Source of the DNA: Sphingomonas koreensis
GTDB lineage: Bacteria > Pseudomonadota > Alphaproteobacteria > Sphingomonadales > Sphingomonadaceae
Direction: 5' to 3'
NCBI RefSeq assembly: GCF_002797435.1
Contig: NZ_PGEN01000001.1
Coordinates: 3,904,501-3,968,500 of the forward strand
DNA length: 64,000 nt
Made by a program: the position numbers and the translations under genes. This document shows, piece after piece, positions 9,801-49,040 of the stretch. Each line of letters begins with the position of its first letter. Position 1 is the stretch's first letter. The notes under the pieces were generated by a model. It was given only the letters and a program-made list of their open reading frames with translations. It was not told where the DNA came from and made no database searches.

Positions 9801-9875
9801 TGGGGCGTAGCCAAGCGGTAAGGCAGCGGTTTTTGGTACCGCCATGCGCTGGTTCGAATCCAGCCGCCCCAGCCA
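9801..9875 (+). tRNA. tRNA-Gln (anticodon TTG)
   Basis: A 75-base cloverleaf with CCA encoded. The acceptor arm TGGGGCG pairs with CGCCCCA, the anticodon stem GCGGT/ACCGC encloses the loop TTTTGGT (anticodon TTG), and the T arm CTGGTTCGAATCCAG is perfect. Its 3' half is repeated at 31739-31790 and 48991-49040, marking it as the attachment site of integrative elements. Confidence 0.96.
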
Positions 9876-9876
9876 G
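9827..9876 (+). repeat. Attachment repeat copy 1 (inside tRNA-Gln)
   Basis: The 3' part of the tRNA-Gln gene from the anticodon stem to the CCA end. The first 42 bases (9827-9868) are identical to 31739-31780, and all 50 bases match 48991-49040 with three changes. An integrase remnant begins 140 bases downstream, the usual arrangement for an element inserted into a tRNA 3' end. Confidence 0.85.
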
Positions 9877-10015
9877 CATTCCCTTGTGTTTCGGCTCCAA
9901 GGAGTTGAAATCACGGGAGAAGCACTGCGATGAGTTGTTCGGCGAGTTGGACCGGGTTTGACCGGTTTGGGCGGCAATTGTCTCACGATTTGTCTCATGA
10001 TTTTGTGCCTTCGGG

Positions 10016-10698
10016 GTGCCGGCCAAGGAGTCGGCACTGGCACGAATTGCAACCTTCAGCCCTGCGTCGATCGATTCGCTCAGGCAGGGCAGGCTACAGG
10101 ACCCTCGCACGCCAGACCTGATGATCGAGGTGCTGCCAAGCGGCAGGAAGGTGTGGAAGTACGAGCGTCGGCTGGCCGGCGACGGCGCATTGATCAGGCG
10201 GACCCTCGGTAGGTTCCCCACGCATAGGATGAGGACGCCCGCGAATGGGCGGCCGCATTAAATGATCAGGTCGAGACCGGCATCGATCCGCGTGAGGTCA
10301 GACGAGCGGAAGAAGCCGCAGAGCGTGCACGTGAAGCGCGTGCTTCTCGTGCGAAAAAGCCGAACAAGCCCCGTACGATCAAGGACAAGTTGGGCATCTA
10401 CACCCGCGATATCGCGCCGACGCTGGCTCAGCGTTGCATCTATGCGATGAAGTCGTCGGGGGGTATGGGAGATACCCGCCCATCGCGCCAAGAACAGCTG
10501 CGCGCGTCGTATCGAGCTTGTTGCTTGGGGGCGGCGACTGATCCATCCAATCATGAGTGGGTTTTCCCGGCCGAACGAATGGAAGGTCCGCGCACACAGG
10601 GTTGGTACCAGGCACGGGATCGCGTGCTGCCGCGCTTGATGCGCCGCGGCCTCGTGCGGCGAACGATGATGAGTGTGGGAGTTAGAACTACGTTGTAG
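10016..10698 (+). pseudogene. Tyrosine-type integrase remnant
   Basis: The first frame (10016 to about 10230) reads like the N-terminal arm-binding domain of P4-type integrases: LQDPRTPDLMIEVLPSGRKV, WKYERRLAGDG, RRTLGRFP. The reading then shifts frame near 10225-10235 and continues as DAREWAAALNDQVETGIDPR, a stretch native integrases carry next, followed by PRTIKDKLGIYTRDIAPTLA. After about 10450 similarity is lost except for a possible catalytic-domain scrap (WVFPAERMEGPRTQGWYQAR). The gene is frameshifted and internally deleted, so it should be inactive. Its position just after tRNA-Gln shows that the flanking element arrived by tRNA-targeted integration. Confidence 0.8.
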
Positions 10699-11004
10699 CT
10701 GACAGTCGGTGAGACTCAAATTCCGTGAGAACGAAGCCAGATACCAACCTTGCGAAGCGTCCGGAACAGAACGTCAGCTATCCCGGTCGTAGAGTTGGTG
10801 CCCACACGCGATCTACATTCTGGCCGGACCGAGCCCGTTCACCAGCGCGTCGGCGACATCGCCATCAGAGACAAGGCCCGGGCCGAAAAAGGGGCACCGT
10901 GTCGTAATCCTGATAATTGATGCGCGTATCAGCGGGCCGTGGCAGGGAATCTGAGCGTCTCTTCATTGGCTGTTGCTGAAAGACTGCAACGCGCCCCCAT
11001 TTCT
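10699..11004. other. Gene-free remnant stretch
   Basis: No supported coding region. It lies between two pseudogenes. Short open frames here have no recognisable motif or ribosome binding site; probably decayed mobile-element DNA. Confidence 0.5.
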
Positions 11005-11629
11005 GACGTTCGGAACGATCGCTGCCGCCCCCATGAGCCGAGCGCCAGCCGTCGCGCAGAGGCCGATCGGTCCCTTGCGCGAACACTGCGACCGCGTCGC
11101 CGATACGGATCTTGCCCGTCTCCGCGCCTCCGAAGCCGGTCGAGAGCATGTCGGGTCACATCAGCACCTGCTCATCGGTGAGACCGTCCGGGATCGGCGC
11201 GAGATTGGCCATCGCGTTGGGGACAAGCAGATAGTCGGCCTGCGCCCCGTCGACCGTGTCGCCGAAACGTCAGCCGCCGATCGCTTTCCAGCCGTGCGCG
11301 GTGCCTGCACCGCACTGCGCGTGGCAGCCGTCGAGCGATGCGTTGGACCAGCCCGACGGCGTAATCGCACCGGCGATGACTCGCTGGCCTTCGCGATAGC
11401 CTTGCACGGCCGAGCCGAGCTTCTCGATCATGCCGACTGGTTCGTGGCCGATCGTCAGGCCCGGAGCGACGGGGTATTCGCCCTTGAGGATATGGATATC
11501 CGTCCCGCAGATGGTCGTCGTGGTGATGCGCATCAGCGCATCGAGCAGGCCGACCTCGGGCACCGGCTTTTCACCCAGGACCAGCCGGCCCGGCTCAAGG
11601 AAGATCGTCGCGCGCATCTTGTTGGCCAT
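11005..11629 (-). pseudogene. Zinc-dependent alcohol dehydrogenase remnant
   Basis: The N-terminal half of a medium-chain alcohol dehydrogenase is recognisable in three frames. The first (from 11629) has TTTTICGTDIHILKGEYPV and LTIGHEPVGMIEKLG; the second has DGAQADYLLVPNAMANLAPI and STGFGGAETGKIRIGD; the third is a Rossmann-region scrap. At least two frameshifts and an in-frame stop interrupt it, and the coenzyme domain is missing, so no enzyme is made. Alcohol dehydrogenases of this type are common in hypoxia gene sets, so this may be a lost member of the island's original cargo. Confidence 0.8.
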
Positions 11630-11676
11630 GTGAAATCCTCCTTGCGGTCACCTCGCGAGGGCAGAGGCCCTCGTGC

Positions 11677-11784
11677 TCAGCGATGGGTCCAGGCGATCAC
11701 TGCCACCCAGCCATCGATCAGCGCGGTCGAGATGAATTGCAGCAGCCAGAAAAGGAGCAGCCCGCTAACAGCATAGGTTGCCAT
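11677..11784 (-). CDS. Tiny membrane protein (35 residues)
   Basis: A single hydrophobic helix followed by a short tail ending DGWVAVIAWTHR. GGAGGG stands eight bases before the ATG. It lies 79 bases downstream of the beta-CASP nuclease gene on the same strand, so it is probably cotranscribed. The tail resembles the end of another tiny protein at 13858-14019 (DFWIIVIAWLQP), which suggests a small family within this island. Function unknown; single-helix proteins of this size often bind larger membrane complexes. A GC hairpin (CGAGGGC/GCCCTCG) follows its stop. Confidence 0.6.
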   Translation of the reverse strand: MATYAVSGLLLFWLLQFISTALIDGWVAVIAWTHR

Positions 11785-11863: not shown

Positions 11864-13504
11864 CTATTCGGCACGGGCGTCCTCCGCGGGCCGGCGCTCG
11901 CTCCGAGGATCACGCGCTCGGGGCAGCACCCTGCGCAACGGCGAGCGGCCCACCGCGGCAATTGCCTGATCGGCAGCATCCAGCGCGGTCCGGCGCTCCG
12001 CGTCGGAGGGCAGTGCGAGCAGTCGGGCCTCGAGCTTCGCGATGAATGCGGCGTAGCGGTTGCGCCAGTCATCCGGCGCGAGGAGTGTCGCGGCGTCAGG
12101 CCGCGCGCCGCGGATGCGCCGGGCCGGTTCTCCAACCTCAAGTCTGAACTGTTCCCCGAGCAGGGGTGCGAGCGGCTGAGGGAGGCCGGGAATTGCCGCG
12201 GCATCGCGAACAAGCTGCACAAGCGCTGGCTGTTCGCCATGATCGAGGAAGATCGTACCTCTCACCGGCGCCCGTTTGGTGAGCCATCTGAGCAGGCCAT
12301 CACGATCGGCGTGAGCGGAATATGCGTCGATCGTGCGCAGCCGCGCCCGCACCGGCACATCGGCACCGGAGATTCGGACGGCTGTTGCGCCGGCGGCAAG
12401 CACCGCGCCGAGCGTGCCCTGCGCCTGATAGCCAACCAGCAATATGGTCGAGTCGCCCCTTGGCAGGTTGCGAAGCAGATGATGGCGCACCCGGCCACCG
12501 GTGCACATGCCAGAACCGGCAATGATGATGGCGCCCGACAGCCGGTTGAGGCTCTTCGACTCCTCGACACTGCGCGTAAAGCGCACCTCAGGATGATCGA
12601 ACGGGGACGGACCGCCATGGGGCGGGCCTTGGAACCGGCGATACGCCTGGGTGACCCGGTCGGCGAGCGGCGCGTCGACGAACACCGGCACCGGCGCGAT
12701 ACGTCCCGCGTCGAATCCCGCGACGATATCCTCGATCAGAACTTGCGTGCGTTCGAGCGCGAAAGCCGGAATGACCAGGTTGCCGCCGTGCCCGAGTGCC
12801 GCCTCGATCTCGCGGGCGAGCAGTTCGCGACGTTGGCCGATCGTCGGAATCGTGCGGTCGCGATTGCCATAGGTCGCCTCGCATATGACATGGTCCCAGC
12901 CGCCCGCCGGCGCGGACGGGCCCGATATTGTAGCTGCGCCCGGACCGATATCGCCGGAGAAAAGCAGGGACTGCCCATCGATCCTGAGCTCGACCGACGC
13001 GGCGCCGAGGATGTGATGCGCGTCCCAGAAGCGCAACGACACGCCAGGAAGCGGCTCCAGCCATTTGCCGATCGCGAGTCCTTTGACCTGCCCGATAAGC
13101 CGCTCGACATCGTCGAAGTCGTAAAGTGGCTCGAAGGGGGGGAGGCCCGTCCGGTCGGGCCGTTCATTCCGGCGCTCCGCGTCGGCCGCCTGCAGGTTCG
13201 CGGCATCCGCGAGCAATGGTCCGAGAAGCTGTCGATTGGGCGGCGCACACCAGACGGGTGCGGTCAATCCTTCGCGGACCAGAAGCGGCAAGCGACCGGA
13301 ATGATCGAGATGTGCGTGCGTCAGGATGACGAGGTCGAGTTCGGCGGGATCGAAGGGCAGTGGCTCGTAGTTCAGCGCTTCGAGTGAGCGGGAACCCTGG
13401 TAGAGGCCGCAGTCGATGAGCACGCGATGGCGCTCCGAGCAGAGCTCCATGCACGATCCGGTGACCGTGCCTGCTGCGCCGTGAAAGGTGAGTTCGAGCG
13501 ACAT
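11864..13504 (-). CDS. Metallo-beta-lactamase/beta-CASP nuclease
   Basis: 547 residues. Metal-binding motifs appear in order: LTHAHLDHSG (motif 2), a DAHHILGAASVEL segment (motif 3), LFSGDIG (motif 4), then beta-CASP signatures ending in IIAGSGMCTGGRVRHHL and DAYSAHADRDGLLRWL. This is the architecture of Ysh1/CPSF-73-like RNases and exonucleases that process RNA 3' ends, acting in the cytosol. The C-terminal 60 residues are Arg/Ala/Asp-rich and variable. ATG 13504 is used because the fold starts immediately (LELTFHGAAGTVTGSC). It faces the promoter region with the dyad at 13605 and may belong to the hypoxia regulon. Confidence 0.88.
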   Translation of the reverse strand: MSLELTFHGAAGTVTGSCMELCSERHRVLIDCGLYQGSRSLEALNYEPLPFDPAELDLVILTHAHLDHSGRLPLLVREGLTAPVWCAPPNRQLLGPLLADAANLQAADAERRNERPDRTGLPPFEPLYDFDDVERLIGQVKGLAIGKWLEPLPGVSLRFWDAHHILGAASVELRIDGQSLLFSGDIGPGAATISGPSAPAGGWDHVICEATYGNRDRTIPTIGQRRELLAREIEAALGHGGNLVIPAFALERTQVLIEDIVAGFDAGRIAPVPVFVDAPLADRVTQAYRRFQGPPHGGPSPFDHPEVRFTRSVEESKSLNRLSGAIIIAGSGMCTGGRVRHHLLRNLPRGDSTILLVGYQAQGTLGAVLAAGATAVRISGADVPVRARLRTIDAYSAHADRDGLLRWLTKRAPVRGTIFLDHGEQPALVQLVRDAAAIPGLPQPLAPLLGEQFRLEVGEPARRIRGARPDAATLLAPDDWRNRYAAFIAKLEARLLALPSDAERRTALDAADQAIAAVGRSPLRRVLPRARDPRSERRPAEDARAE

Positions 13505-13604
13505 ATGCGGTCCGGTGAGCCTTCTCGCTTGCGTTGCCCCGGGCATGCTTGGTTGCATGCCTCGAGCCGGAAACGAGAGTGATGGCGCTCGAAGAGAGGC
13601 GGCA

Positions 13605-13620
13605 TTGGGAATGTCCCTAA
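13605..13620. promoter_or_regulatory. Island dyad site 1
   Basis: TTGGGAATGTCCCTAA, an imperfect inverted repeat between the divergent nuclease gene and the small-protein genes. It shares its layout (TTGG-N7-CCNNA) with sites at 16303, 19505, 25458, 29289 and 29313. Confidence 0.4.
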
Positions 13621-13726
13621 TGTCCGCCTCACCGAACCGGAGCGAGCAGCGTGCATCCGTATACCCACGGATTCCGGTACCTCGGCGTCTCGACCAAATC
13701 GAGGTCTCCAATCGGAGGAGCCGGTC

Positions 13727-16699: not shown

Positions 16700-17845
16700 T
16701 CAGTAGAAGTCGGCGGAGGTGGTGACCTGTTGCGCTGTCACCCGGCCCCACATCACGCGCATCGCCCAGGCCGTGTAGGCGAGTACGACCGGGAGGAAGA
16801 TCAAGGTCACGATCAGCATCAGGAGCAACGTCGACTCGCTGGACGAGGCGTTCCACACGGTCAGGCTCGAGCGCGGGTCGATGCTGGACGGCAGGATGAA
16901 CGGAAACATCGAGAGACCCACCGTCGCGATGATCCCCGTTGCCGACAGCGAGGAACCGAGAAACGCCGCACCTTCGCGCTGACGAAGGATGCCGAAGAGC
17001 GCGAGCAGCGCGCCGGCAAAGCCGAGTAGCGGCGCCGCGAGCGTCCACGGAAAAGCTGCATAGTTGTCGAGCCAGGCACCAGGCGCGGCTTCGGTCACCG
17101 TGCGCAGCGGGTTGGACAAGCCGAGCGGACCCGGGCTCGCTACGACACGGTAGCCGAGCCCGGTCCACGCGACGAACGCGCCGCCGATCGCGAACAGGGT
17201 CATCGCGGCAAGCGCGGCGACGACGCCAAAGCGGCGGGCGCGGCGGTGGACGGGGCCATGCTCGACCTTGATCGCGAGCCAGGCGCTCCCGTGGAGCACC
17301 AGCATGGCGACCGAGAGCAGGCCGCACACCAGGGTGAACGGGGTGAACAGGCCGAGCAGGCCGCCCTCATACCAGGCGCGCTGATCACCATCGATCCGGA
17401 AGGGGGCTCCGGCGAGCACATTGCCCACCGCGATGCCGAACACGAGCGGAGGAACCAGCCCGCCCACGAACAATGCCCAGTCCCAGCGGGTGCGCCATTT
17501 CGGATCGGCTCTTTTCGAGCGGTATTTGAACCCGACCGGCCGCAGGATCAGCGCGGAGAGCACCAGGAACATGGCCAGGTAGAAGCCGGAGAAGCTCACC
17601 GCATAGACGAACGGCCAGGCGGCGAAGATCGCGCCGCCGCCAAGGATGAACCAGACCTGGTGGCCTTCCCAGTGCGGGCCGACCGAATTGATCACCATAC
17701 GGCGCTCAACATCGGTGCGGGCGACGAAGGGGAGCAGCGCGGCCGCGCCCATGTCATATCCGTCGGTCAGCGCGAAGCCGATCAGCAGGATACCGAGCAG
17801 GCCCCACCAGATCAGGCGCAGCATTTCATAGTCGAGGAATTCCAT
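16700..17845 (-). CDS. cydB: Cytochrome bd ubiquinol oxidase subunit II
   Basis: 381 residues, eight to nine membrane helices. It begins LRLIWWGLLGILLIGFALTDG, followed by VGPHWEGHQVWFILGGGAIF and YSGFY-like FSGFYLAMFLVL, as in classical CydB. With CydA it forms the quinol oxidase that reduces oxygen to water at very low oxygen levels without pumping protons. Eleven bases separate it from cydA. Confidence 0.95.
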   Translation of the reverse strand: MEFLDYEMLRLIWWGLLGILLIGFALTDGYDMGAAALLPFVARTDVERRMVINSVGPHWEGHQVWFILGGGAIFAAWPFVYAVSFSGFYLAMFLVLSALILRPVGFKYRSKRADPKWRTRWDWALFVGGLVPPLVFGIAVGNVLAGAPFRIDGDQRAWYEGGLLGLFTPFTLVCGLLSVAMLVLHGSAWLAIKVEHGPVHRRARRFGVVAALAAMTLFAIGGAFVAWTGLGYRVVASPGPLGLSNPLRTVTEAAPGAWLDNYAAFPWTLAAPLLGFAGALLALFGILRQREGAAFLGSSLSATGIIATVGLSMFPFILPSSIDPRSSLTVWNASSSESTLLLMLIVTLIFLPVVLAYTAWAMRVMWGRVTAQQVTTSADFY

Positions 17846-17856
17846 GGCTTGGTTCC

Positions 17857-19431
17857 TTATTCGGCGGCCTGTGCGACGGTTGCGGGCGACGGGAAGGCGT
17901 CCGGCTCATCTTCCACGGGACCGTGCCTGATGGCGGCCAGGATCAGGCGAATCTCGATGACCGCGAGCGCGCCGTAGAGCAGGGTGAAGCCGATGATCGT
18001 CGTCCAGAGCGCCGCCGGCGTCAGCGTCGAAGTCGCCAGGAAGGTCGGCAGCACGCCGTCGATCGCCCAGGGCTGACGGCCCATCTCGGCGACGATCCAG
18101 CCAAGTTCGATCGCTACCCATGGCAACGGGATCGCGAACAGCGCCAGGCGGTGGAACCAGCGCGCCTCGAGGTGCCGCCTGAAGCTCGCCAACGCAAAGG
18201 CGGTGGCGAACAGCGCGATCATGAAGAAGCCGATCAAGGCCATGACGCGGAAGCTCCAGAACATCAGCGGCACGCTCGGCACCGTGTCCCATGCCGCCGT
18301 GCGGATCTGCTCCGGAGTCGCTGCCGCCGGGTCGGCGACATGGCGTTTGAGCAGCAGGGCGAAGCCGAGGTCGCGCCTGTGCGCCTCGAATTGCGCGCGC
18401 GCGCTGGCATCTTGCGGATCGCGCTTCAGCACCTCGACCGCGCGATAGGCAATCTGCCCAGAAGCGATGCGTTCCTGCGCGTGCAGCACCAGCTCGGACA
18501 TGCCGGTCACTTCGCCATCGAGACTGCGCGTGGCGATGAGGCCGAGCGCCCAGGGAATCTCGACCGAATAGCGCGTCGTCTGTGCGGCGGAGTCGGGCAT
18601 GCCGATCAGCGTCAGGCCGGCCGGCGCCGCTTCGGTGTGCCAGGCGGCTTCGATCGCGGCGAGCTTCATCTTCTGGTTGTCGGTCAGCGCGTAGCCGCTC
18701 TCGTCGCCAAGCACGACGACCGAGAGCGAGGAGGCAAGACCGAAGGCCGCCGCGACGACGAAGGAGCGACGGGCAAATGCGGTCCATCGGCCGCGCAGCA
18801 GGTAGAAGCAGGATACGCCGAGCACGACGACGGCGGCGGTGACATAGCCGGCGCTTACCGTGTGAACGAACTTGGCCTGGGCGACCGGATTGAAGATCAC
18901 CGCGCCGAAGTCGGTCACCTCCATGCGCATCGTCTCAGGATTGAACGCCGCGCCGACCGGGTTTTGCATCCAGCCATTGGCGATCAGGATCCACAGCGCC
19001 GACAGATTGGTGCCGAGCGCAACGAGGAAGGTGACGACGAGATGCGCGACCTTCGACAGCCGCTCCCAGCCGAAGAACATCAGGCCGACAAAGGTCGCCT
19101 CTAGGAAGAAGGCCATCAGCCCCTCGATGGCCAGCGGCGCGCCGAAAATGTCGCCGACATAGTGCGAAAAGTACGACCAGTTGGTGCCGAACTGGAACTC
19201 CATGGTAAGGCCGGTGGCGACCCCCAGCACGAAGTTGATCCCGAAGATCTTGCCCCAGAAGCGGGTGACCTGCCGCCAGATCGGGCGGCCAGTCATGACA
19301 TAGATCGCTTCCATGATGACGAGCATGAAGCTCAGCCCGAGCGTCAGGGGCACGAACAGGAAGTGGTAGAGCGCGGTCAGCGCGAACTGCAGTCGCGACA
19401 GGTCGACGACGCTCGGGTCGAGCGAATCCAT
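17857..19431 (-). CDS. cydA: Cytochrome bd ubiquinol oxidase subunit I
   Basis: About 524 residues. It closely follows the E. coli pattern: RLQFALTALYHFLFVPLTLG with the haem-ligand His, GLTMEFQFGTNWSYFSHYVG, and WILIANGWMQNPVG. A long quinol-binding Q loop and GRQPWAIDGVLPT near the C-terminus are present, so this is the long-Q-loop subtype. It carries haems b558, b595 and d. ATG 19431 gives the family's usual N-terminus; ATG 19458 is an alternative. It is divergent from cydD across a 118-base region with a dyad at 19505. Confidence 0.96.
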   Translation of the reverse strand: MDSLDPSVVDLSRLQFALTALYHFLFVPLTLGLSFMLVIMEAIYVMTGRPIWRQVTRFWGKIFGINFVLGVATGLTMEFQFGTNWSYFSHYVGDIFGAPLAIEGLMAFFLEATFVGLMFFGWERLSKVAHLVVTFLVALGTNLSALWILIANGWMQNPVGAAFNPETMRMEVTDFGAVIFNPVAQAKFVHTVSAGYVTAAVVVLGVSCFYLLRGRWTAFARRSFVVAAAFGLASSLSVVVLGDESGYALTDNQKMKLAAIEAAWHTEAAPAGLTLIGMPDSAAQTTRYSVEIPWALGLIATRSLDGEVTGMSELVLHAQERIASGQIAYRAVEVLKRDPQDASARAQFEAHRRDLGFALLLKRHVADPAAATPEQIRTAAWDTVPSVPLMFWSFRVMALIGFFMIALFATAFALASFRRHLEARWFHRLALFAIPLPWVAIELGWIVAEMGRQPWAIDGVLPTFLATSTLTPAALWTTIIGFTLLYGALAVIEIRLILAAIRHGPVEDEPDAFPSPATVAQAAE

Positions 19432-30096: not shown

Positions 30097-30101
30097 GCAT
30101 G

Positions 30102-39543: not shown

Positions 39544-39578
39544 TATAGCCGCTGCCAGAGGCCTTTGATGAGCACAGA

Positions 39579-39607: not shown

Positions 39608-39610
39608 AAC

Positions 39611-39624
39611 TGGAAGCGCTTCCA
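39611..39624. promoter_or_regulatory. LacI-type operator 2
   Basis: TGGAAGCGCTTCCA, identical to operator 1. The two centres are 81 bases apart, with the promoter between them, an arrangement that permits DNA looping by a tetramer or cooperative dimers. Confidence 0.85.
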
Positions 39625-39689
39625 ATCGGTGGTGTTCCAAGGATGCAGGACAGGTAGTCCGCACGTAGAATGAAGGGGAGGAGTTCGAG

Positions 39690-42539
39690 ATGGGGCAGGC
39701 GCCTGGGGCAGGTTGCGTCACTTCAGCATTGTGGAAGCTCGGCCTGACGGCATCGTCGCTGGCGCTGATCGCGGGCGTGCCGTCGATCGCCGTCGCACAG
39801 GAGGCCGCAGCGCAGGATGATCCGGTTCAACCCGAGGCGGAGGTGGTCGTCACCGGCCTGCGCGCCGGGCTTGAAAGCTCGATCAACACCAAGCGGAACG
39901 AAACCTCGATCGTCGAGGCGGTCTCGGCCGAGGATATCGGCAAGCTGCCCGACACCTCGATCGCCGAGTCGATTGCGCGTCTGCCCGGCCTTGCCGCCCA
40001 GCGCGTCAACGGCCGCGCGCAGGTCATCTCCATCCGCGGCCTGGCGCCGGATTTCACCACCACGCTGCTCAACGGCCGCCCGCAGGCGAGTTCGGGCGAC
40101 AACCGTGCCGTCGAGTTCGACCAATATCCCTCCGAGCTGCTGTCGAGCGTCGTCATCTACAAGACGCCCGATGCGGGCATCTCGGGCATGGGCCTGTCGG
40201 GCACCGCGGACTTGCGCACCGTTCGACCGCTCGCCTTCGGCAAGCAGGCGATCGCGCTCAACATCCGCGGCGAGCTTACCGAGGGCAAGCGGCTGAACGC
40301 CGATGTCCGCAACTGGGGCGGCCGCATAAGCGCCAGCTATATCGACCAGTTCGCCAACGATACGATCGGCATCGCGATCGGCTATGCGCATCTCGATTCG
40401 CCGTCCAAGAACATGCACTACAAGGCCTATGGCTACGAGGCGTTCGGCTTTGCGGTGACGCCCGACAGCGCTGACAAGGCGCTGCTGCTCAACGGCCAGG
40501 AGGTCTTCGCCACCTCGCGCCTCAACCGGCGCGACGCCTGGATCGGCATCCTCGAATGGCAGCCGGGCGAGACCGTGCACGTGACCGCCGATCTCTATTA
40601 TTCGAAGTTCCGGCAGGAAGAGACGATGCGCGGCGCGCAATGGTTCTCGAACGGCTGGGCCGACAATGCGACCTTCACCAACGTCCAGACGGAGGACCGC
40701 GGCGGATCGCTGTTCGGCGTCAGCGGCAGGGTCAACAATGTCGCGCCGATCATCCGCAACGACCGCAACACGCGCAACGACGAACTGTTCTCCGCCGGCC
40801 TCAACGGCGAGTTCAAGATGGACGACCGGACGACGTTCGAGGCGGATCTGTCCTATTCGACCAACAAGCGCCGCGAGCAGATCCTGGAAACCTATGCGGG
40901 CTATGGCCGGGGCACCGGCTTCGTCTCGGGCGCGACGCCGAATGTCGGGCGCACGATGGACTCGATCGATTTCAACGTGCCCGACAATGGCTATCCGACC
41001 TATCGTGCGGGGCTGAATTATGCCGATGCGGCGCAGGTCTCGCTCGGCGACCGTGCGCCCTGGGGCGGCTGGGCGCATGACGGTTCGATCCGCTTCCCCG
41101 ATGTCAAGGAAAGCATCTATGCGATCGACCTTGGCATCGAGCACAGGGTGGGCGGCTTCATCGACAAGCTGACCGCCGGCATCAATTTCACGCGTCGCGA
41201 AAAGAGCAAGCGCGTCGATGATTTCGACCTGTTCCTCAAGAATGGCCGCCAGCAGGTCTATGTCGATCCCCAGTATCTGGAGAAGCCGACCTCGCTCGGC
41301 TATACCGGCTTCGGCGACGTCCTCGCGATCGACCTGGAACGGGCGCTCGACGTCTACTGGAATCGCGCGCCGATCCTAGACGCCAATTATTTCGACAAGA
41401 ATTGGGATATCGAGGAAGAGCTGCTCACCGGCTTCGTCAAGGCCGACTTCAAAGCCGGGCCGGTGCGCGGCAATATCGGCGTCCAGTTCGTCCAGCAGCG
41501 GCAGAAATCGACCGGTATGGTGATCAACGGGCTTGAGCCCGGTCAGCCGATCGTGCCGACGACGCGCACCGCGGGCGCCGAGTATCTCGATATCCTGCCC
41601 AGCGCGAACATCATCTGGGAACTCGGCGGGGGGCACCGGCTGCGCTTTGCGGCGTCCAAGACCATGGCGCGCCCGCGCATGGACGAGATGCGCGCGAACG
41701 TCACGCCCAGCTTCAACGCGATGCAATGTTCGAGCGGTCCGGGCTGCGCGCCGGGGCAGACGGTCAATCCTTGGTCGGCCACGGGCGGCAACCCCAACCT
41801 CAAGCCGTGGCGGGCCACGGCGTTCGACGTGGCGTATGAATGGTATATCAATCGGACGACCTATTTCTCGGTCGCCGGGTTCTACAAGGATCTCGATACC
41901 TATATCTATCAGCGAACCGATAAGTTCGATTTCAGCGGCATTCCGGTTCCCGTCATCGGCCAGACCGCCTATGCCAATCAGGTGATCAGTCCGATCGGAC
42001 AGATCACGCTGCCCGCCAACGGCAATGGCGGCATCATCAAGGGAGTCGAAATCAGCGGCGCGCTGGATTTCGGCACGATCGTCCGGCCGCTCGCCGGGCT
42101 CGGCGTGATCGGCAGCCTCTCGCTGACCGACTCCGACCTCAACCCCGCCGACAATGGTCAGGACGTGCGGATCCCGGGCCTGTCGGGCACGATCTACAAT
42201 ATCACCGGCTATTATGAGAGCGGCGGCTTCCAGGCGCGCGCCAGCTATCGCTACCGGTCGAAGTTCAAGGGCGAGGTGGTGCAGCTGTTCGCGACGCGCG
42301 GCTTTACCGAAATTCTCGCCGACCGGCAGGTCGATGCGCAGATCGGCTATACGTTCGAGCGCGGGCCGCTCCAAGGGCTCGGCGTGCTGTTCCAGGTGAA
42401 CAACGTGACGGACTCGCCCTATCGTACGCGGCTCGGCCTCGATGGCGGCGGCACGACGACTGCCGATGGCGGTACGCTGCTCGAGACTTACGAGAAGTAC
42501 GGCCGGCAGTTCCTTCTGGGGTTCAACTACCGGTTCTGA
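39690..42539 (+). CDS. TonB-dependent receptor (sugar type)
   Basis: 949 residues. Signal peptide (residues about 20-38, cleaved near AVAQEA), then a TonB-box-like EVVVTGLR, a plug domain (DIGKLPDTSIAESIARLPGL, RGLAPDFTTTLLNGR) and a 22-strand barrel ending in FLLGFNYRF with terminal Phe. The plug phrases match the TIGR01782 receptors used by sphingomonads and caulobacters for oligosaccharide uptake. It would import glucan oligomers across the outer membrane. GGGGAGG lies before the ATG. It is the first gene of the LacI-controlled cluster. Confidence 0.94.
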   Translation: MGQAPGAGCVTSALWKLGLTASSLALIAGVPSIAVAQEAAAQDDPVQPEAEVVVTGLRAGLESSINTKRNETSIVEAVSAEDIGKLPDTSIAESIARLPGLAAQRVNGRAQVISIRGLAPDFTTTLLNGRPQASSGDNRAVEFDQYPSELLSSVVIYKTPDAGISGMGLSGTADLRTVRPLAFGKQAIALNIRGELTEGKRLNADVRNWGGRISASYIDQFANDTIGIAIGYAHLDSPSKNMHYKAYGYEAFGFAVTPDSADKALLLNGQEVFATSRLNRRDAWIGILEWQPGETVHVTADLYYSKFRQEETMRGAQWFSNGWADNATFTNVQTEDRGGSLFGVSGRVNNVAPIIRNDRNTRNDELFSAGLNGEFKMDDRTTFEADLSYSTNKRREQILETYAGYGRGTGFVSGATPNVGRTMDSIDFNVPDNGYPTYRAGLNYADAAQVSLGDRAPWGGWAHDGSIRFPDVKESIYAIDLGIEHRVGGFIDKLTAGINFTRREKSKRVDDFDLFLKNGRQQVYVDPQYLEKPTSLGYTGFGDVLAIDLERALDVYWNRAPILDANYFDKNWDIEEELLTGFVKADFKAGPVRGNIGVQFVQQRQKSTGMVINGLEPGQPIVPTTRTAGAEYLDILPSANIIWELGGGHRLRFAASKTMARPRMDEMRANVTPSFNAMQCSSGPGCAPGQTVNPWSATGGNPNLKPWRATAFDVAYEWYINRTTYFSVAGFYKDLDTYIYQRTDKFDFSGIPVPVIGQTAYANQVISPIGQITLPANGNGGIIKGVEISGALDFGTIVRPLAGLGVIGSLSLTDSDLNPADNGQDVRIPGLSGTIYNITGYYESGGFQARASYRYRSKFKGEVVQLFATRGFTEILADRQVDAQIGYTFERGPLQGLGVLFQVNNVTDSPYRTRLGLDGGGTTTADGGTLLETYEKYGRQFLLGFNYRF

Positions 42540-42573
42540 TCCTCTCCCCGGACAATCGCTTCCCCGGGGCATT

Positions 42574-42609
42574 GCGGGAGGGCATGCGAGTGCCTTCCCG
42601 CCCCTTTTT
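42574..42609 (+). terminator. Rho-independent terminator after the receptor gene
   Basis: An 11-base stem (42574-42584 with 42591-42601, one G-T pair) with a six-base loop, followed by CCC and five T. It lies between the receptor and the glycosidase genes and would lower, rather than abolish, expression of the downstream genes if they share the promoter. Confidence 0.85.
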
Positions 42610-42651
42610 CGACGGTGCCGGGCTGATCCGGCCTAGCCAAGAGTGCCTGCA

Positions 42652-44601
42652 ATGATGCGTAGCCTGACTGGTCTTGCCTTGCTCCTCCCGATCCTTGTCG
42701 GGTCCACGGCCGCGCAGGACGCGCGGCGCAGTACGTCATGGCGGGGGGACGACTGGCCTGTGCAGACTTCGCCGATTCTGCGCGATGACGCGATGGAGGC
42801 GAGGATCGCCGGGATCGTGGCAGCGATGACGCTCGAGCAGAAGATCGGGCAGATGACCCAGCCGGATATCCGCTACGTCACGCCCGATGAGGTGCGGACC
42901 CACTATATCGGCTCGGTCCTGAACGGCGGCGGCGCATGGCCGGGAATGCGGAAGGACGCTGCGCTGGCCGACTGGACTGCCTTGTCCGACGCCTATTACC
43001 GCGCGTCGATGTCCACCGACATGAAGGTGCAAGTGCCGGTGATCTGGGGCACCGACGCGGTACATGGACATGGGAATGTCGCCGGCGCGACGCTGTTTCC
43101 GCACAATATCGGCCTCGGCGCGGCGCGCGATCCCGGCCTGGTCGAGCGGATCGGCCGCGCGACCGCGAAGCAGGTTCGCGCGACCGGCATAAGCTGGGTG
43201 TTCGCGCCTACGCTCGCGGTCGGCGAGAATCGCCGCTGGGGCCGGACCTATGAAAGCTATTCGAGCGATCCGGCGATCGTTGCCAGCTATGGCGCGGCCA
43301 TGGTGCGGGGGCTGCAGGGCGGCCTCAAGGGCGACGGCGACGTGGTCGCGACCGCGAAACACTATCTGGGCGATGGCGGCACCTTCCAGGGCGTCGATCA
43401 GGGCGAGAACCGCGCGAGCCGCAAGCACATGATCCAGGTCCAGGCTGCGGGCTATTATCCTGCGCTCGATGCCGGCGTGCAGACGGTGATGGCGACCTAC
43501 AACAGCTGGAAGGATGTCGCTGCCAGCAAGGATTACGGAAAGATTCATGGCAACCGCGAGCTGCTGACGGACGTGCTCAAGGGGCGGCTGGGCTTTGACG
43601 GTTTCGTCGTTTCCGACTGGAACGGCATCGAGCAGGTGCCCGGTTGCAGCAAGGCGCATTGCCCGCAGGCGATCAATGCCGGGATCGACATGGTGATGGT
43701 ACCGGAGGACTGGAAGGCGTTCATCGCGAACACCGTCGCCGATGTGCGCGAAGGCCGCATCGCAATGGCGCGGATCGATGACGCGGTGACCCGCATCCTG
43801 CGCGTCAAGCTCCGCTCAGGACTGTTCGAGCGCAATCCGGCTGCAACCGCCTGGGCGGCGCGGCCCGAGGCGCTCGACGATCGCGCGCTGGCACGCGAGG
43901 CGGTGCGCAAGTCGGTCGTGCTGCTCAAGAACGGCGGTGCGCTGCCCCTGGCGCCGGACAAGCGCGTACTGGTGGTGGGCGCAAGCGCGGACAGCCTTTC
44001 CAACCAGACCGGCGGGTGGTCGCTCACCTGGCAGGGAACCGAGAACGGCAATGCCGATTTCCGCGGTGGCACGACGCTGCTCGCCGCGTTGCGCAAGGCG
44101 CTCGGCGAGGCCAACGTCACCTATTCGCCCGACGGGAGCAACGTCGATGTGACGCGGTTCGATCGCGTTGTCGCGGTGATCGGCGAGACGCCCTATGCCG
44201 AATATCACGGCGACGTCCGCTTCCCCAGGCCGGTGGCGCACAGCCAGCTGCGCCCGTCCGACCGCGCGGTGATCGACGCGGTTGCGGGGAAGGGCGTGCC
44301 GGTCGTGACAATCCTCTATTCGGGGCGCCCGGCCTATGCGAACGACCTGATCAACCGCTCCGATGCGTTCGTGGCGGCGTTCCTTCCGGGGACCGAGGCG
44401 GATGGCCTGGCAGACGTGCTGCTGAAGCGCGGGCATGACTTTACCGGGCGGCTGTCCTTCGCCTGGCCAGGCTCGGCGTGCTCGACCGGCGAGGCGCCAG
44501 GAGACATCGTGCAGTTTCCGCGCGGCTATGGGCTGAGCTATGGCAAGGCGAAGCGGACCGTTCGGCTTCCCGAGCCGGCGGTGCCCGCCGCATGCCGATG
44601 A
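42652..44601 (+). CDS. Glycoside hydrolase family 3 beta-glucosidase
   Basis: About 649 residues with a signal peptide (SLTGLALLLPILVGSTAAQ). The catalytic (beta/alpha)8 domain has MTLEQKIGQMTQP, GTDAVHGHGNVAGATLFPHN, KHYLGDGGT and the nucleophile Asp322 in GFVVSDWNGIEQ. The C-terminal alpha/beta sandwich ends near 640; it lacks the extra C-terminal domain found in longer ExoP-like relatives. It should release glucose from beta-linked oligosaccharides in the periplasm. No strong ribosome binding site, so expression may be modest. Confidence 0.92.
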   Translation: MMRSLTGLALLLPILVGSTAAQDARRSTSWRGDDWPVQTSPILRDDAMEARIAGIVAAMTLEQKIGQMTQPDIRYVTPDEVRTHYIGSVLNGGGAWPGMRKDAALADWTALSDAYYRASMSTDMKVQVPVIWGTDAVHGHGNVAGATLFPHNIGLGAARDPGLVERIGRATAKQVRATGISWVFAPTLAVGENRRWGRTYESYSSDPAIVASYGAAMVRGLQGGLKGDGDVVATAKHYLGDGGTFQGVDQGENRASRKHMIQVQAAGYYPALDAGVQTVMATYNSWKDVAASKDYGKIHGNRELLTDVLKGRLGFDGFVVSDWNGIEQVPGCSKAHCPQAINAGIDMVMVPEDWKAFIANTVADVREGRIAMARIDDAVTRILRVKLRSGLFERNPAATAWAARPEALDDRALAREAVRKSVVLLKNGGALPLAPDKRVLVVGASADSLSNQTGGWSLTWQGTENGNADFRGGTTLLAALRKALGEANVTYSPDGSNVDVTRFDRVVAVIGETPYAEYHGDVRFPRPVAHSQLRPSDRAVIDAVAGKGVPVVTILYSGRPAYANDLINRSDAFVAAFLPGTEADGLADVLLKRGHDFTGRLSFAWPGSACSTGEAPGDIVQFPRGYGLSYGKAKRTVRLPEPAVPAACR

Positions 44602-44617
44602 CGTTCCCGGGGGGAAC

Positions 44618-46123
44618 ATGAAGCAGATCAAGCGCATACTGATCGTCGGCGGCGGATCGGCGGGGTGGATGACCGCCGCGCTGCTCGCGCGCCTGTTCGA
44701 GGGGCTTTACGAAATCACCCTCGTCGAGTCCGAGGAGATCGGCACCATCGGCGTGGGCGAGGCGACGATCCCCGCGATCAAGAAGTACAACGAACTCCTG
44801 GCGCTCGACGAAGACGATTTCATGCGCCGTACGCAGGGCAGTTTCAAACTGGGTATCCAGTTCGTCGACTGGTGGCGCAACGGCGAGAGCTATATCCACG
44901 GCTTCGGCCTGATCGGCCAGGACCTCGGCTGGCTGCGCTGCCACCATTACTGGCTCAAGATGCGTGGGCAGGGCCGCGCATCGGACTTCTCAAATTATTC
45001 GATCAACACCGCCGCCGCGCTCGCGGACAAGTTCATGCGCGCCGATCCGCGGATGACTGAATCGCCGATCGGGCATATTGCGCACGCGTTCCACTTCGAC
45101 GCTGGCCTCTATGCCCGATACCTGCGCGACTACGCCGAGGCGCGCGGCGTCCGGCGGCGCGAGGGCAAGGTGATGGACGTAACGCTGCGGGGCGATGACG
45201 GGTTCGTGGAATCCGTGACGATGGCCGACGGCGAAGTGATCGCCGCTGATTTCTTCGTCGATTGCTCGGGCTTCCGCGGACTGATCATCGAACAGGCGAT
45301 GCAGACCGGCTATGAGACCTGGACGCACTGGCTGCCCTGCGACCGCGCGATCGCGGTGCCCTGCGCGCGGATCGAGCCGTTCACTCCCTATACGCGGGCG
45401 ACGGCGCGCACTGCGGGCTGGCAGTGGCGCATCCCGCTCCAGCACCGCACCGGCAACGGTCATGTCTATTCGAGCCAGTATATCGACGATGCCGAGGCCG
45501 AGCGTCAGCTTCTCGACAATCTCGACGGCGCGCAACTCGCCGAGCCCAACCGCATCCGCTTCACCACCGGCAAGCGCAAGCAGATCTGGAACCGCAACTG
45601 CGTCGCGATCGGGCTCGCCTCGGGCTTTCTCGAGCCGCTCGAATCGACGAGCATCCACCTGATCCAGTCGTCGATCATCCGGATGGTGCGGCTGTTGCCC
45701 GATGCCGGCTTCGATCCCGCCGGCATCGCCGAATTCAACCGTCAGACCGACTTCGAGTACGAGCGCATCCGCGACTTCATCATCCTTCACTACAAGGCGA
45801 CGGAGCGGGACGACACGCCCTTCTGGCGCTATTGCCGTGACATGGACGTCCCCACCACGCTCCAGCGCAAGATCGACCTGTTCGCGGCCAACGGCCGCAT
45901 CTTCCGCGAGGACGAAGAGCTGTTCGCGGAAGAGAGCTGGATCCAGGTGTTGCTGGGCCAGGGCGTGATGCCGCGCGGCTATGACCCGCTGGTCGATGTC
46001 AAGGACGAGGGCGAGATCGCGCAGTATCTGGGCGACATCGAGCGGGTCATCCGCAAGTGCGTCGATGTGATGCCCGACCACGCGGCCTATGTCGCGAGGA
46101 CCTGCCCGGCACGAGCTTCCTGA
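44618..46123 (+). CDS. Flavin-dependent tryptophan-halogenase-like protein
   Basis: 501 residues. FAD-binding GGGSAGWMTAALLARLF, then GVGEATIPAIKKYN, Lys77 in SFKLGIQFVDWW (equivalent to Lys79 of PrnA), the halogenase signature AGWQWRIP and FLEPLESTSIHL with Glu342 (equivalent to Glu346). The halogenation residues are therefore intact. Such genes are common in sphingomonad and xanthomonad sugar loci next to TonB receptors, where their substrate is unknown and halogenation has rarely been shown. It starts 16 bases after the GH3 stop. Confidence 0.9.
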   Translation: MKQIKRILIVGGGSAGWMTAALLARLFEGLYEITLVESEEIGTIGVGEATIPAIKKYNELLALDEDDFMRRTQGSFKLGIQFVDWWRNGESYIHGFGLIGQDLGWLRCHHYWLKMRGQGRASDFSNYSINTAAALADKFMRADPRMTESPIGHIAHAFHFDAGLYARYLRDYAEARGVRRREGKVMDVTLRGDDGFVESVTMADGEVIAADFFVDCSGFRGLIIEQAMQTGYETWTHWLPCDRAIAVPCARIEPFTPYTRATARTAGWQWRIPLQHRTGNGHVYSSQYIDDAEAERQLLDNLDGAQLAEPNRIRFTTGKRKQIWNRNCVAIGLASGFLEPLESTSIHLIQSSIIRMVRLLPDAGFDPAGIAEFNRQTDFEYERIRDFIILHYKATERDDTPFWRYCRDMDVPTTLQRKIDLFAANGRIFREDEELFAEESWIQVLLGQGVMPRGYDPLVDVKDEGEIAQYLGDIERVIRKCVDVMPDHAAYVARTCPARAS

Positions 46124-46145
46124 CGGCGTGGTGAGGAGAGAAACG

Positions 46146-47558
46146 ATGCGGATCATGGCCGGATTTTCCACGCTGGCGCTGGCTGGATGTGCCGCCGCTG
46201 CGACGCCGGGGACGGACAGCGTCGAGGCATGGCTGACGCTGCCGGACCAGTCGGCGCTGCTCGCGCAGCAATCCCCGATTCCTTTCGGTGGCGAGGGCGG
46301 GACGATAGTGATCGCTGTCGACCCCGCGCAGCGCTTTCAGAAGATTGTCGGCTTTGGGGCCTCGATCACCGACGCTTCGGCTTGGCTGATCGAGAAGAAG
46401 ATGTCTCCGGCGCAGCGTGACGCGCTGCTCAAGGACCTGTTCGGTCCCGCGCCGGGGATCAATCTGAGCTTCACCCGCCTGACCGTCGGCGCGTCCGATT
46501 TCTCGCGCACGCACTACAGTTATGACGACAGGCCCAAAGGCCAGACCGATCCGCAGCTAAGGCATTTCTCGATCGCTCCGGCAAGAGAGGTGGTGCTCCC
46601 CGCCGTACGGGCTGCCCGGCGGATCAATCCGAAGATCGCGCTGATGATATCGCCGTGGAGCGCGCCGGGCTGGATGAAGAGCACGGATTCGCTGATCAAG
46701 GGCACGCTAAAGCCGGAGGCCTATGCGCCCTTCGCCGCCTATCTGCGCCGCACCGCGCAGGAATTCGCACGCGAGGCCGGGCCGGTCGATTATCTCAGCA
46801 TCCAGAACGAGCCGGATTTCGAACCCGAAGACTATCCGGGCATGCGGCTCAGCCCCGCCCAGCGCGCCGAGGTGATCGGCCGGCATGTCGGACCCGAATT
46901 CGCGCGTGCGGGGCTGAATACGAAGATCCTCGACTGGGACCACAACTGGGACAAACCCGAACAGCCGCTCGGCGTGCTGGCCGATCCGGTGGCTGCCAAA
47001 TATGTCTCGGGTGTCGCGTGGCACTGCTATGGCGGCGATGTCGCCGCGCAGTCGAAGGTGCGGGAGGCGCATCCCGACAAGGATGCCTTCTTCACCGAAT
47101 GCTCGGGCGGCGAATGGTCAAAGGCCTGGCCCGACAGCTGGGCCTGGACGGTGCGGACGCTGGTGATCGGTAGTGTCCGGCATTGGGCGCGCGGCGTGCT
47201 GATGTGGAACCTGGCGCTTGACGAGAATTACGGGCCGCGTCTCGGCGGGTGCGGGAACTGCCGCGGCGTGGTCAGGATCGACAGCAAGACCGGCCAGGTG
47301 ACCCGCAACCCTGAATATTATGCGCTCGGCCATGCCAGCCGCTTCGTCGAGCAGGGCGCATGGCGCATCGCCTCCGCGAGCACTCCGGGCGGGATCGAGA
47401 CTGTCGCGTTCCTCAACCCGGGGGGGACGCGAGTGCTGCTGGCGTTCAATGCGGGCGCCGCGGGGCAGGCCTTCGCCGTCGAGGCGGATGGCCGACGTTT
47501 CGCCTATACTCTTGCGCCGGGCGCGGCGGTCACCTTCCGATGGCGGGCGCCGCGCTGA
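46146..47558 (+). CDS. Glycoside hydrolase family 30 enzyme (beta-1,6-glucanase or glucosylceramidase-like)
   Basis: About 470 residues. Lipoprotein signal with LAGC. The catalytic domain has FQKIVGFGASITDASAW, MISPWSAPGWMK, acid/base Glu222 in SIQNEPDF and nucleophile Glu318 in FFTECSGGEW, the GH30 pattern; the C-terminal beta-sandwich follows. GH30 subfamilies include endo-beta-1,6-glucanases. Together with GH3 it suggests growth on beta-1,6- or mixed beta-glucans. GGAGAG precedes the ATG. Surface or periplasmic location depends on lipoprotein sorting. Confidence 0.9.
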   Translation: MRIMAGFSTLALAGCAAAATPGTDSVEAWLTLPDQSALLAQQSPIPFGGEGGTIVIAVDPAQRFQKIVGFGASITDASAWLIEKKMSPAQRDALLKDLFGPAPGINLSFTRLTVGASDFSRTHYSYDDRPKGQTDPQLRHFSIAPAREVVLPAVRAARRINPKIALMISPWSAPGWMKSTDSLIKGTLKPEAYAPFAAYLRRTAQEFAREAGPVDYLSIQNEPDFEPEDYPGMRLSPAQRAEVIGRHVGPEFARAGLNTKILDWDHNWDKPEQPLGVLADPVAAKYVSGVAWHCYGGDVAAQSKVREAHPDKDAFFTECSGGEWSKAWPDSWAWTVRTLVIGSVRHWARGVLMWNLALDENYGPRLGGCGNCRGVVRIDSKTGQVTRNPEYYALGHASRFVEQGAWRIASASTPGGIETVAFLNPGGTRVLLAFNAGAAGQAFAVEADGRRFAYTLAPGAAVTFRWRAPR

Positions 47559-48811
47559 GCACCCGCGCCGCCTTTGCTGCGGTCGCGGCGCTCTTCTTCG
47601 CCTGGGGCTTCGTCTGCGCCAATAACGATCCGCTGATTGCGGCGGTTCGTCACGTCTTCCGCCTGTCCTGGACCGAGGCGCTGCTTACGCATATCGTCTT
47701 CTTCTTCGCCTTCGCGACCGTCTCGCTTCCGGCTGCTGCATTGCTCGCACGGGCAGGGGCGACGCGGACGATCCTGATCGCGCTTGGGTCGATGCTAGCC
47801 GGTTGCCTCGTCATTCAGGCGGTGCGCTGGGTACCAGCGTTTGGAGTCGTCCTCGGCGGACTATTCCTGCTCGCCGCCGGTGTCGCCACGCTTCAGGTCG
47901 CCGCCAACCCGCTCGCGGCGGCGCTGGGACCGCCCGGGCAGCGTCACTTCCGCCTCACGCTGGCACATTCGCTCAACTCGCTCGGCATGGTCTGCGGCGC
48001 CCATTTCGGCGCGCAGTTCCTGCTGGCGGAAGTGAATCTCACGCCGGCGATGCCCGCCAGTCGCGTCGCTGGCGCACCGACCATCGCGCACGCCTTTCTG
48101 GTGATCGGCGGCCTCACCTTCGGTCTCGCCCTGCTGACCCTGGCCGTGCGTCGGACGATCGAGCGTGCTGCGCCAGCCCCTGCGCCGGGGGGCGGGCTGG
48201 GCGATGCGTTGCGGTCGCGCTGGGCGATCGCGGGCGCAGCTGCGATCGGCCTCTATGTCGGCGCCGAGGTATCGATCGGTAGCGTGCTGATCCCGTTTCT
48301 GTCATCTCCCGACACGCTGGGGCTCCCCGCCGCGGTCGCGGGGGCCTATGTCGCCAATCTCTACTGGGGTGGCGCGCTGGCCGGACGCTTTCTCGGCAGC
48401 TGGGCGTTGCGCTTCATCCCCGCGGCGCGACTGCTGGCACTGTTCGCGGGGAGCGCCGCAGCCCTGTGCCTGGCGGCGCTTGTCCTGCCCGGACCGGCCG
48501 CAGCCTGGTGCGTGCTCGCGATCGGGTTGTTCAACTCGATCCTGTTCCCGACCGTCTTCGGCCTAACGCTCGAACGGTCTGGCGTGAGTGAGGCGGCGAC
48601 GTCGGGACTGCTGTGCGTCGCCATCGGCGCTGGCGCAGTGCTGCCCTTCCTGGTCGGCCGGATCGCTGATCTGGCCGGCCTCGGTTGGACCTTCGTGATA
48701 CCGATGATCGGTTACGTCTATATTCTGGGGTTCGCTTTCCGAGCGGCGGCGAGCCCCGATACCGGAAGCAGCGCCGTCAATCGACGTCCAAGGTCTCGGG
48801 CTGAACGATGA
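47540..48811 (+). CDS. MFS sugar transporter (FucP/glucose-galactose type)
   Basis: 423 residues, twelve membrane helices. LFFAWGFVCANNDPLIAAVR matches the first helix of FucP-like proton symporters; FLVGRIADLAGLGW and the LPFL loop lie near the end. It would take the released sugar from periplasm to cytosol. ATG 47540 overlaps the GH30 gene by 19 bases; no other start gives a proper first helix. It is the last gene of the cluster. Confidence 0.88.
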   Translation: MAGAALSTRAAFAAVAALFFAWGFVCANNDPLIAAVRHVFRLSWTEALLTHIVFFFAFATVSLPAAALLARAGATRTILIALGSMLAGCLVIQAVRWVPAFGVVLGGLFLLAAGVATLQVAANPLAAALGPPGQRHFRLTLAHSLNSLGMVCGAHFGAQFLLAEVNLTPAMPASRVAGAPTIAHAFLVIGGLTFGLALLTLAVRRTIERAAPAPAPGGGLGDALRSRWAIAGAAAIGLYVGAEVSIGSVLIPFLSSPDTLGLPAAVAGAYVANLYWGGALAGRFLGSWALRFIPAARLLALFAGSAAALCLAALVLPGPAAAWCVLAIGLFNSILFPTVFGLTLERSGVSEAATSGLLCVAIGAGAVLPFLVGRIADLAGLGWTFVIPMIGYVYILGFAFRAAASPDTGSSAVNRRPRSRAER

Positions 48812-48930
48812 GCTAGCATACGAAGCTGTTGAAAATTCACGGCTTGAAGCCGCCTGACACTGCCGTTGGCCCGCGGGAGAAGAAGCTTCGTCGGGTGGCT
48901 CGGTTGGGACAGTGGGTCAAATTCACAAGA

Positions 48931-49040
48931 GAATATACCGCATTTCAAGTGCTTATAGGCTTTTTCGAGCGCTTGCCGGCGGTAGGAATTCGGTTCTTGC
49001 TACCGCCATGCGCTGGTTCGAACCCAGCCGCCCCAGCCAG
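48931..49040 (+). repeat. Attachment repeat copy 3 with flanking element end
   Basis: 48991-49040 matches the tRNA-Gln 3' part with three changes in 50 bases. About 58 bases upstream stands AATATACCGCATT, the same motif and spacing as before copy 2. The acceptor arm cannot form, so it is not a tRNA gene. It is the probable right end of the second island. The rest of the 340-base gap (48812-49152) holds no supported gene. Confidence 0.82.

Follow-up and report, generated by a model that had tools for sequence, protein, structure and literature searches.

Tandem copies of a tRNA-Gln 3' end in Sphingomonas koreensis best read as marks of two successive island integrations

We analysed 64,000 nucleotides of Sphingomonas koreensis DNA (positions 3904501-3968500 of a single-contig genome of 4,398,689 bases; hereafter the window), in which an intact tRNA-Gln(TTG) gene is followed by two further copies of its own 3' end. 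The best reading of this arrangement, to which we give a probability of about three in four, is that two elements integrated successively at the 3' end of the tRNA gene. The proximal interval of about 22 kb (9877-31738) would be the younger island; it carries low-oxygen and stress genes and is delimited by matched arms of a left and a right attachment site (attL and attR). The distal interval of about 17 kb (31791-48990) has putative attachment (att) sites on both sides and would represent an older, reduced island. Two successive integrations had been proposed in a preliminary description of this DNA. For the 22-kb interval the proposal stands, backed by a pair of arm sites and by the site preference of the integrase family; for the 17-kb interval what speaks for it is copy 3 of the tRNA end and the DNA flanking that copy.

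Putative attachment sites, arm sites and the integrase

The tRNA-Gln(TTG) gene occupies 9801-9875 on the plus strand and is the sole tRNA called by ARAGORN in the window. Its 3' part from about 9827, on the same strand, would serve as the attachment core (attL), as judged from the extents of second copies in related genomes. Copy 2, the putative attR of the first island, lies at 31739-31790 (plus strand). Its longest exact run is 43 nt (from 9827 in the tRNA and 31739 in the copy), one more than previously described; one base is missing before about 31790, and similarity extends back to 31723 (93% over 59 nt). Copy 3, read as the attR of an older element, lies at 48991-49040, again on the plus strand and 17 kb from copy 2, and is identical to 9827-9876 at 47 of 50 positions, as had been noted. 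Across the whole genome of 4.40 Mb, the E-values are 1.5e-20 for copy 2 and 1.2e-15 for copy 3. The three copies, directly visible in the sequence, share one orientation, and the repeated part covers the tRNA from position ~27 onwards to its 3' end. Among relatives, the stronger of the second copies have a similar extent, beginning at tRNA positions 21-34 and ending at 75-77. Such repeats are rare, and the dispersed repeat family considered earlier as a competing outcome was not seen: while 148 of 151 genomes of the genus match the tRNA, at least two matches at E<=1e-6 occur in only seven, namely our genome, with four, and G065, G071, G079, G087, G095 and G144, with two each.

Elements of this kind carry on their inner flanks, after the tRNA and again before the far copy, a tandem repeat close to TGTGTCCCGATT-TGTGTACCGATT. 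We built a weight matrix from 12 such arm sites of other genomes, none of them from the window. When 127,948 window positions were scored, the highest value (38.9) fell on TGTCTCACGATT-TGTCTCATGATT at 9979-10005, 103 nt after the tRNA, and the second (25.8) on TGTCTTACGACT-TGTCTCACTATT at 31621-31647, 118 nt before the core of copy 2, both on the plus strand. The third score, 14.7, overlaps the first site, and the next non-overlapping site reached 9.9. The maximum in six control stretches (120 kb) was 18.7; it came from locus L058, a stretch that holds no tRNA copy, and was dismissed as noise. Aligned directly with each other, the two window sites scored 40 against a mean of 18.6 for single-base shuffles, a value attained by none of 1000. 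The 22-kb interval thus has paired, predicted integrase arm sites at its two ends.

An integrase remnant had been reported right after the intact tRNA, and it is real. With the intact homologue from genome G065 as tblastn query, we located at 10049-10638 (plus strand) a broken tyrosine-type integrase of the Arm-DNA-bind_3 family that retains residues 8-72, continues with 71-161 in another frame, lacks 162-296 and keeps 297-333. Two of its pieces, in two frames, match Pfam Arm-DNA-bind_3 collinearly (profile positions 20-53 and 57-83), both with scores under the curated cut-off. The same query run over 164 kb around the tRNA found nothing beyond this remnant. Because the gene is frame-shifted and its middle part is missing, the proximal island should be unable to move through the action of this enzyme.

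The preference of this integrase family for tRNA-Gln is directly apparent from its other loci. A scan of a GTDB-based collection with a three-sequence alignment returned 25 loci, one of them titled as an Actinobacteria bin and the other 24 carrying names that we take to be those of sphingomonad genera. Upstream DNA was available at 24 loci, and in 19 of these the integrase has a tRNA-Gln end as its upstream neighbour: 17 are tRNA-Gln genes according to ARAGORN, including L267, itself a second copy passing as a tRNA, and two are 3' fragments only. The remaining loci adjoin tRNA-Thr(TGT) in three cases, tRNA-Arg(CCT) in one and nothing recognised in one. Since integrases 59-64% identical to the tRNA-Gln one adjoin tRNA-Thr (L260, L265, L268) or tRNA-Arg (L263), the lineage appears to have switched target. 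Among the 19 genomes with a family integrase at a tRNA-Gln end, 13 hold one or two partial 3'-end copies (E<=1e-5; query start 21-34), or 10 of 16 when G186, G188 and G190, in which the integrase locus itself lies at a second copy, are set aside; the genus-wide rate of 7 in 151 was obtained with a different tRNA-Gln query at E<=1e-6, and at least four genomes belong to both sets. Five of the 19 have no countable copy, and G177 has, instead of a partial copy, a second, almost full one 118 kb away. Partial tRNA-Gln copies thus accompany the integrase family, yet other elements produce them too, since a 40-kb interval in G087 is bounded in this way and shows no family integrase.

Because of the matched arm sites and the preference of the integrase family for tRNA-Gln, it is well supported that copies 1 and 2 are the attL and attR of one island of about 22 kb. 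Copy 3 is linked to copy 2 by its surroundings. The motif AATATACCGCATT, previously placed 58-59 nt upstream of copies 2 and 3, occurs exactly twice in the window (31679-31691 and 48932-48944), starting 60 and 59 nt ahead of the respective cores. It is part of a broader similarity between the inner flank of copy 2 (31648-31743, plus strand, delimited by local alignment) and that of copy 3 (48902-48995, plus strand), the latter devoid of the arm repeat. The two flanks are alike over 97 columns with a score of 69 against a mean of 19 (z 19.7; 0 of 1000 single-base shuffles). A z value of about 5 carries little meaning in such comparisons, since an unexpected pair, the DNA right of copy 3 and a flank from G079, reached 5.2 among the many pairs compared.

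Proposed successive integration and its alternatives

We propose the following history, in which recombination itself and the order of events are what we infer from the arrangement. A first element would have entered the 3' end of tRNA-Gln, and copy 3 would be the attachment site at its far end. A related second element would then have entered at the tRNA and pushed the first one outward, with copy 2 marking its own far end; in both events the tRNA would have been made whole again and a duplicate of its 3' part left at the other end of the insert. Both arm sites would survive in the younger, 22-kb island, and in the older, 17-kb interval the integrase and one arm site would be gone. For copy 3 the best reading is an attR left by an earlier, related element: earlier because it differs at 3 of 50 positions, compared with the exact 43-nt run of copy 2, and because of its distal place; related because its inner flank resembles that of copy 2 over 97 nt. 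Copy 3 and this similar inner flank are what points to an island in the 17-kb interval.

Several results weigh against this reading. An empty site, in which tRNA-Gln would join the DNA right of copy 3, had been predicted. We looked for it in the right flanks of 12 relatives (20 kb each; 40 kb in G015, G026 and G030) and in ~1.5 kb of 53 relatives, one genome per species and with the right flank rearranged, and no relative showed this junction. The DNA right of copy 3 encodes an ATP-dependent DNA ligase and a ligase-associated exonuclease (49153-51737, minus strand; NCBIfam TIGR04120 and TIGR04122, above cut-off), and in no relative examined do these genes lie beside tRNA-Gln. In G026 the ligase is at 2.08 Mb and the tRNA at 3.40 Mb, 1.3 Mb apart; in G015 and G030 the two are on different contigs; a 3.7-kb query around both genes matches 41 of 41 genomes somewhere. 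Because the ligase and exonuclease genes are placed elsewhere in close relatives, copy 3 does not, in the genomes examined, mark the old chromosomal neighbour of the tRNA. The distal interval, moreover, yielded neither an integrase of its own nor a left arm site when searched with the tRNA-Gln-family integrase (tblastn) and the arm matrix; other integrase families were sought by Pfam scans of its larger open reading frames only. Neither a family integrase nor an arm site turned up in the DNA right of copy 2 or next to copy 3, where the best matrix score in the flank is 0.8, and the copy 3 flank resembles the left arm no more than by chance (score 25, which 38 of 1000 shuffles also reached). 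The 12 arms behind the matrix were aligned once the window pair had already been seen. Base composition gives no border, both intervals resembling their surroundings. Finally, copies of the tRNA end also lie far from the gene. Our own genome has a fourth, weaker one 1.7 Mb from the locus (C1:2218555-2218601, or L132:10556-10602; 83% identity, E 3e-7), around which we found no tRNA call and no nearby integrase of the tRNA-Gln family. In G071 a distance of 0.64 Mb separates the second copy from the tRNA, and the DNA adjoining the second copy of G079 lies 1.1 Mb from tRNA-Gln in our own genome. These three cases indicate that att fragments can end up elsewhere.

One alternative is that only the 22 kb integrated, copy 3 being a stray attR moved by rearrangement and the 17 kb ordinary or rearranged chromosome. 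The displaced neighbour of copy 3, the missing integrase and left end of the distal interval, and the stray copies in G071, G079 and at 2.2 Mb of our own genome all fit this alternative, as does the state of the region, where synteny is lost relative to the complete genome G026 and does not return before window coordinate 102632, which is 93 kb right of the tRNA. A stray origin of copy 3 accounts less readily for its having the same orientation as copy 2, at a distance of 17 kb and with 97 inner-flank columns in common. The operon for beta-glucan use that fills much of the interval has no fixed position among relatives; G074 has it ~12 kb right of tRNA-Gln. We consider this alternative unlikely, though a serious one. 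As for the region itself, a zone right of the tRNA (window coordinates 49041 to about 102632) has probably been rearranged, since a 3.9-kb block that G026 and G015 have 13-15 kb right of tRNA-Gln is located here at 0.58 Mb on the minus strand, which suggests a large event. From the tRNA to 102.6 kb, our genome has almost nothing in common with the right flank of G026.

A single 39-kb element that has copies 1 and 3 as its ends and copy 2 as a relic inside it would explain why just one integrase remnant was found, and copies 1 and 3 could recombine as a pair. Oxygen-related regulators stand on both sides of copy 2, and the FixLJ-like genes to its left and the FixK-like gene to its right, which might be functional partners, can be read as one module split by copy 2, a further point against two separate islands. 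The partner of the left arm site is nevertheless found at copy 2 and not at copy 3, and we regard a single element as improbable. Still less can be said for decayed tRNA duplicates produced by local duplication without any integration: copy 2 does keep some similarity to the 5' half (from 31723), but the copies have no tRNA 5' end, such copies accompany the integrase in many genomes, copy 2 is accompanied by the arm repeat, and no duplicated flanking DNA appeared when the window's 20 largest direct-repeat families, out of at least 60, were inspected. This explanation is hardly credible. An arrangement of the same genes in the same order at the same place in relatives, named earlier as an outcome that would contradict successive integration, was not seen in the genomes searched.

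A variable integration site in the genus

The tRNA-Gln site is a hotspot with hypervariable right flanks. In a set of 25 genomes chosen on the tRNA alone, blastn found a match of at least 150 nt within the 1.5 kb to its right in 6 of 300 pairs; to its left, such matches were found in 211 of 276 pairs (24 genomes with enough left flank). Over all 54 genomes the figures are 19 of 1,431 pairs on the right and 1,226 of 1,378 on the left, a comparison biased by 29 genomes that were fetched with a query holding the left flank; the contrast is weaker in the unbiased 25. Our genome's sole right-flank match is to G065, over the integrase region. When two open reading frames, the longest ones, were taken from each ~1.5-kb right flank of the 53 relatives and the resulting 106 were scanned with Pfam at E<=1e-5, Phage_integrase was found in four and Arm-DNA-bind_3 in three; few of these flanks, therefore, carry an integrase directly at the tRNA.

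Relatives with a single island at the same tRNA, whose existence had been anticipated, are G087 (40 kb) and G065 (135 kb). Genome G079 was not counted as such a case, for the DNA beside its second copy is found at 2.80 Mb in our own genome. Together with a 129-kb interval in G183 and an array in G188, the intervals of G065 and G087 have the same tRNA-Gln target as the window. G065, G183 and G188 also share its integrase family and arm-repeat plan, but with the integrase intact; the 40 kb of G087 show no integrase of this family, and the inner flank there is different. A precedent is the three-copy array of G188, in which the intact tRNA-Gln is followed 16.6 kb downstream by a copy and then by a family integrase, the feature missing here; the third copy is on another contig. 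At the second copy of this array ARAGORN calls a tRNA-Gln (L267:3587-3663), which is an att fragment with another 5' half. An integrase directly behind a second copy is also present in G095, G186 and, truncated, in G071.

Other observations concern the variety of elements at this site. In G095 (contig C125, locus L207) a tRNA-Gln 3'-end copy stands between two family integrases, one sharing 44% and the other 65% identity with that of G065. In G179 (contig C77, locus L302) the integrase behind a second copy shares only 26% identity with the G065 protein, and for this reason more than one integrase type may use tRNA-Gln. Several elements (L299-L302) contain a short inverted repeat between the arm repeat and the core, different in each, such as CATGGAAATCCATG in L299. 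Behind the fourth copy in our genome comes GGGATTCGGCTCC, similar to what follows tRNA-Gln in relatives that carry the integrase.

Known tandem islands and the cargo of the two intervals

Tandem stacks of islands at one RNA gene are already known, and the window is a probable further case. In Dehalococcoides, several ssrA islands follow one another behind a single RNA gene, with a repeat of its 3' end at the border of each; some have no integration genes, and immediately before each repeat there is a short conserved motif (PMC3146451). The window likewise presents a row of repeat-bounded intervals, an upstream motif and an interval in which no integrase was found. It differs in its target and enzyme, tRNA-Gln and a broken Arm-DNA-bind_3 tyrosine-type integrase here against tmRNA and a serine recombinase there. 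Tandem accretion is named for ICESt1 and CIME302 of Streptococcus thermophilus in two papers (PMC3146451, PMC8978831), the first of which describes cis-mobilizable elements as att-flanked, integrase-less segments beside a related element. In the window, unlike that pair, both intervals lack a functional integrase, and the protein scans revealed no transfer genes. CIME302 reportedly is att-flanked, without an integrase of its own, and adjacent to a related element. The composite island CGI48 of Shewanella putrefaciens, at tRNA-Trp, consists of one island nested within another and is able to excise (PMC8978831); the window resembles it as a composite island at a tRNA gene and differs in that its parts lie side by side and its integrase is broken. 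Judging by titles and the openings of abstracts, we found no literature on a sphingomonad tRNA-Gln island hotspot or on a tRNA-Gln site with such an arm-repeat plan.

More tentatively, and at somewhat less than even odds, we suggest that the tRNA-Gln(TTG) 3' end could be a sphingomonad-wide plug-in site of one integrase lineage with paired tandem arms, where respiratory and sugar-use modules would be swapped in and stacked, and where integrase-less stacks would stay cis-mobilizable. If so, copies 1, 2 and 3 could allow a newly arrived element of the same family to mobilise either or both islands of the window. The analysis sets borders and a probable acquisition route for a low-oxygen respiration module and perhaps for a beta-glucan operon, marks one tRNA gene as a hypervariable integration site within the genus, and provides in the arm-repeat matrix a simple finder of far island ends, including those of islands with dead integrases.

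The proximal island's cargo includes the cyd module, comprising cydB and cydA for cytochrome bd oxidase (16700-19458, minus strand; Pfam PF02322 and PF01654) and, on the plus strand at 19550-22833, cydD and cydC for an ABC exporter for assembly of that oxidase (Pfam ABC_tran; plasmid homologues are annotated cydD). Beside it, at 23292-25629 on the minus strand, are a FixJ-like response regulator (NCBIfam FixJ, 239 bits, cut-off 255) and a PAS histidine kinase (Pfam PAS/HATPase). Further genes encode a metallo-beta-lactamase/beta-CASP RNase-like protein (11864-13711, minus strand; NCBIfam, below curated cut-offs), an acyl-CoA ligase fused to an acetyltransferase-like domain (26558-29257, minus strand; TIGR02717 and NF058543, below cut-off), and Hsp20 and a universal stress protein (29620-31025, plus strand; Pfam), universal stress proteins in the plural being among the island's cargo. 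Blocks of this island are matched at E<=1e-60 in at least 81 of 151 genomes, our own included, at various places, and G114 holds most of the gene set within 31 kb. The cyd block also occurs on sphingomonad plasmids, for example in Sphingomonas parapaucimobilis and S. panacis (63% of a 7.5-kb query at 74% identity). In G084 the cyd module is ~8 kb right of tRNA-Gln; this is suggestive, but by a rough estimate chance could account for it, and we give it little weight. The island gave no blastn match to the right flanks of tRNA-Gln (20-40 kb) in 12 relatives.

The distal interval opens with a hemerythrin-domain protein whose gene ends 36 nt right of copy 2 (31826-32362, minus strand; Pfam PF01814), followed on the plus strand by a Crp/Fnr-type, FixK-like regulator and a PAS hybrid histidine kinase (33229-36976; Pfam, with NCBIfam below cut-off). 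The earlier labels "hypoxia" and "regulator/glucan" for the two intervals describe their rough content; they fit less well in that the FixK-like regulator and the hemerythrin lie across copy 2 from the FixLJ-like genes. The beta-glucan operon (38382-48811, plus strand; Pfam, NCBIfam) encodes a LacI regulator, a TonB-dependent receptor, GH3, a Trp halogenase-like protein, GH30 and an MFS transporter, the GH30 being endo-1,6-beta-glucanase-like (NCBIfam, below cut-off). Parts of the interval are matched in 137 of 151 genomes, many through the halogenase gene alone; among the 12 relatives, two pieces of this gene in G025 were the only blastn matches inside either interval, tRNA copies aside. Nine relatives chosen because of their matches to the interval were compared for the operon, and six have it, in the same order in G069, G132 and G127 and without GH3 in G074, G124 and G135. 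Its place beside the same tRNA in G074 is suggestive and carries little weight. As a block on plasmids the operon was not found (34 records matched, the best over 29% of the query at 66% identity). Pfam scans of the larger proteins of both intervals recognised no relaxase, conjugation or transfer genes among them. The proximal island also contains, at about 10865-11740 on the minus strand, a broken zinc alcohol dehydrogenase, of which an ADH_N piece (11270-11629) survives amid stops.

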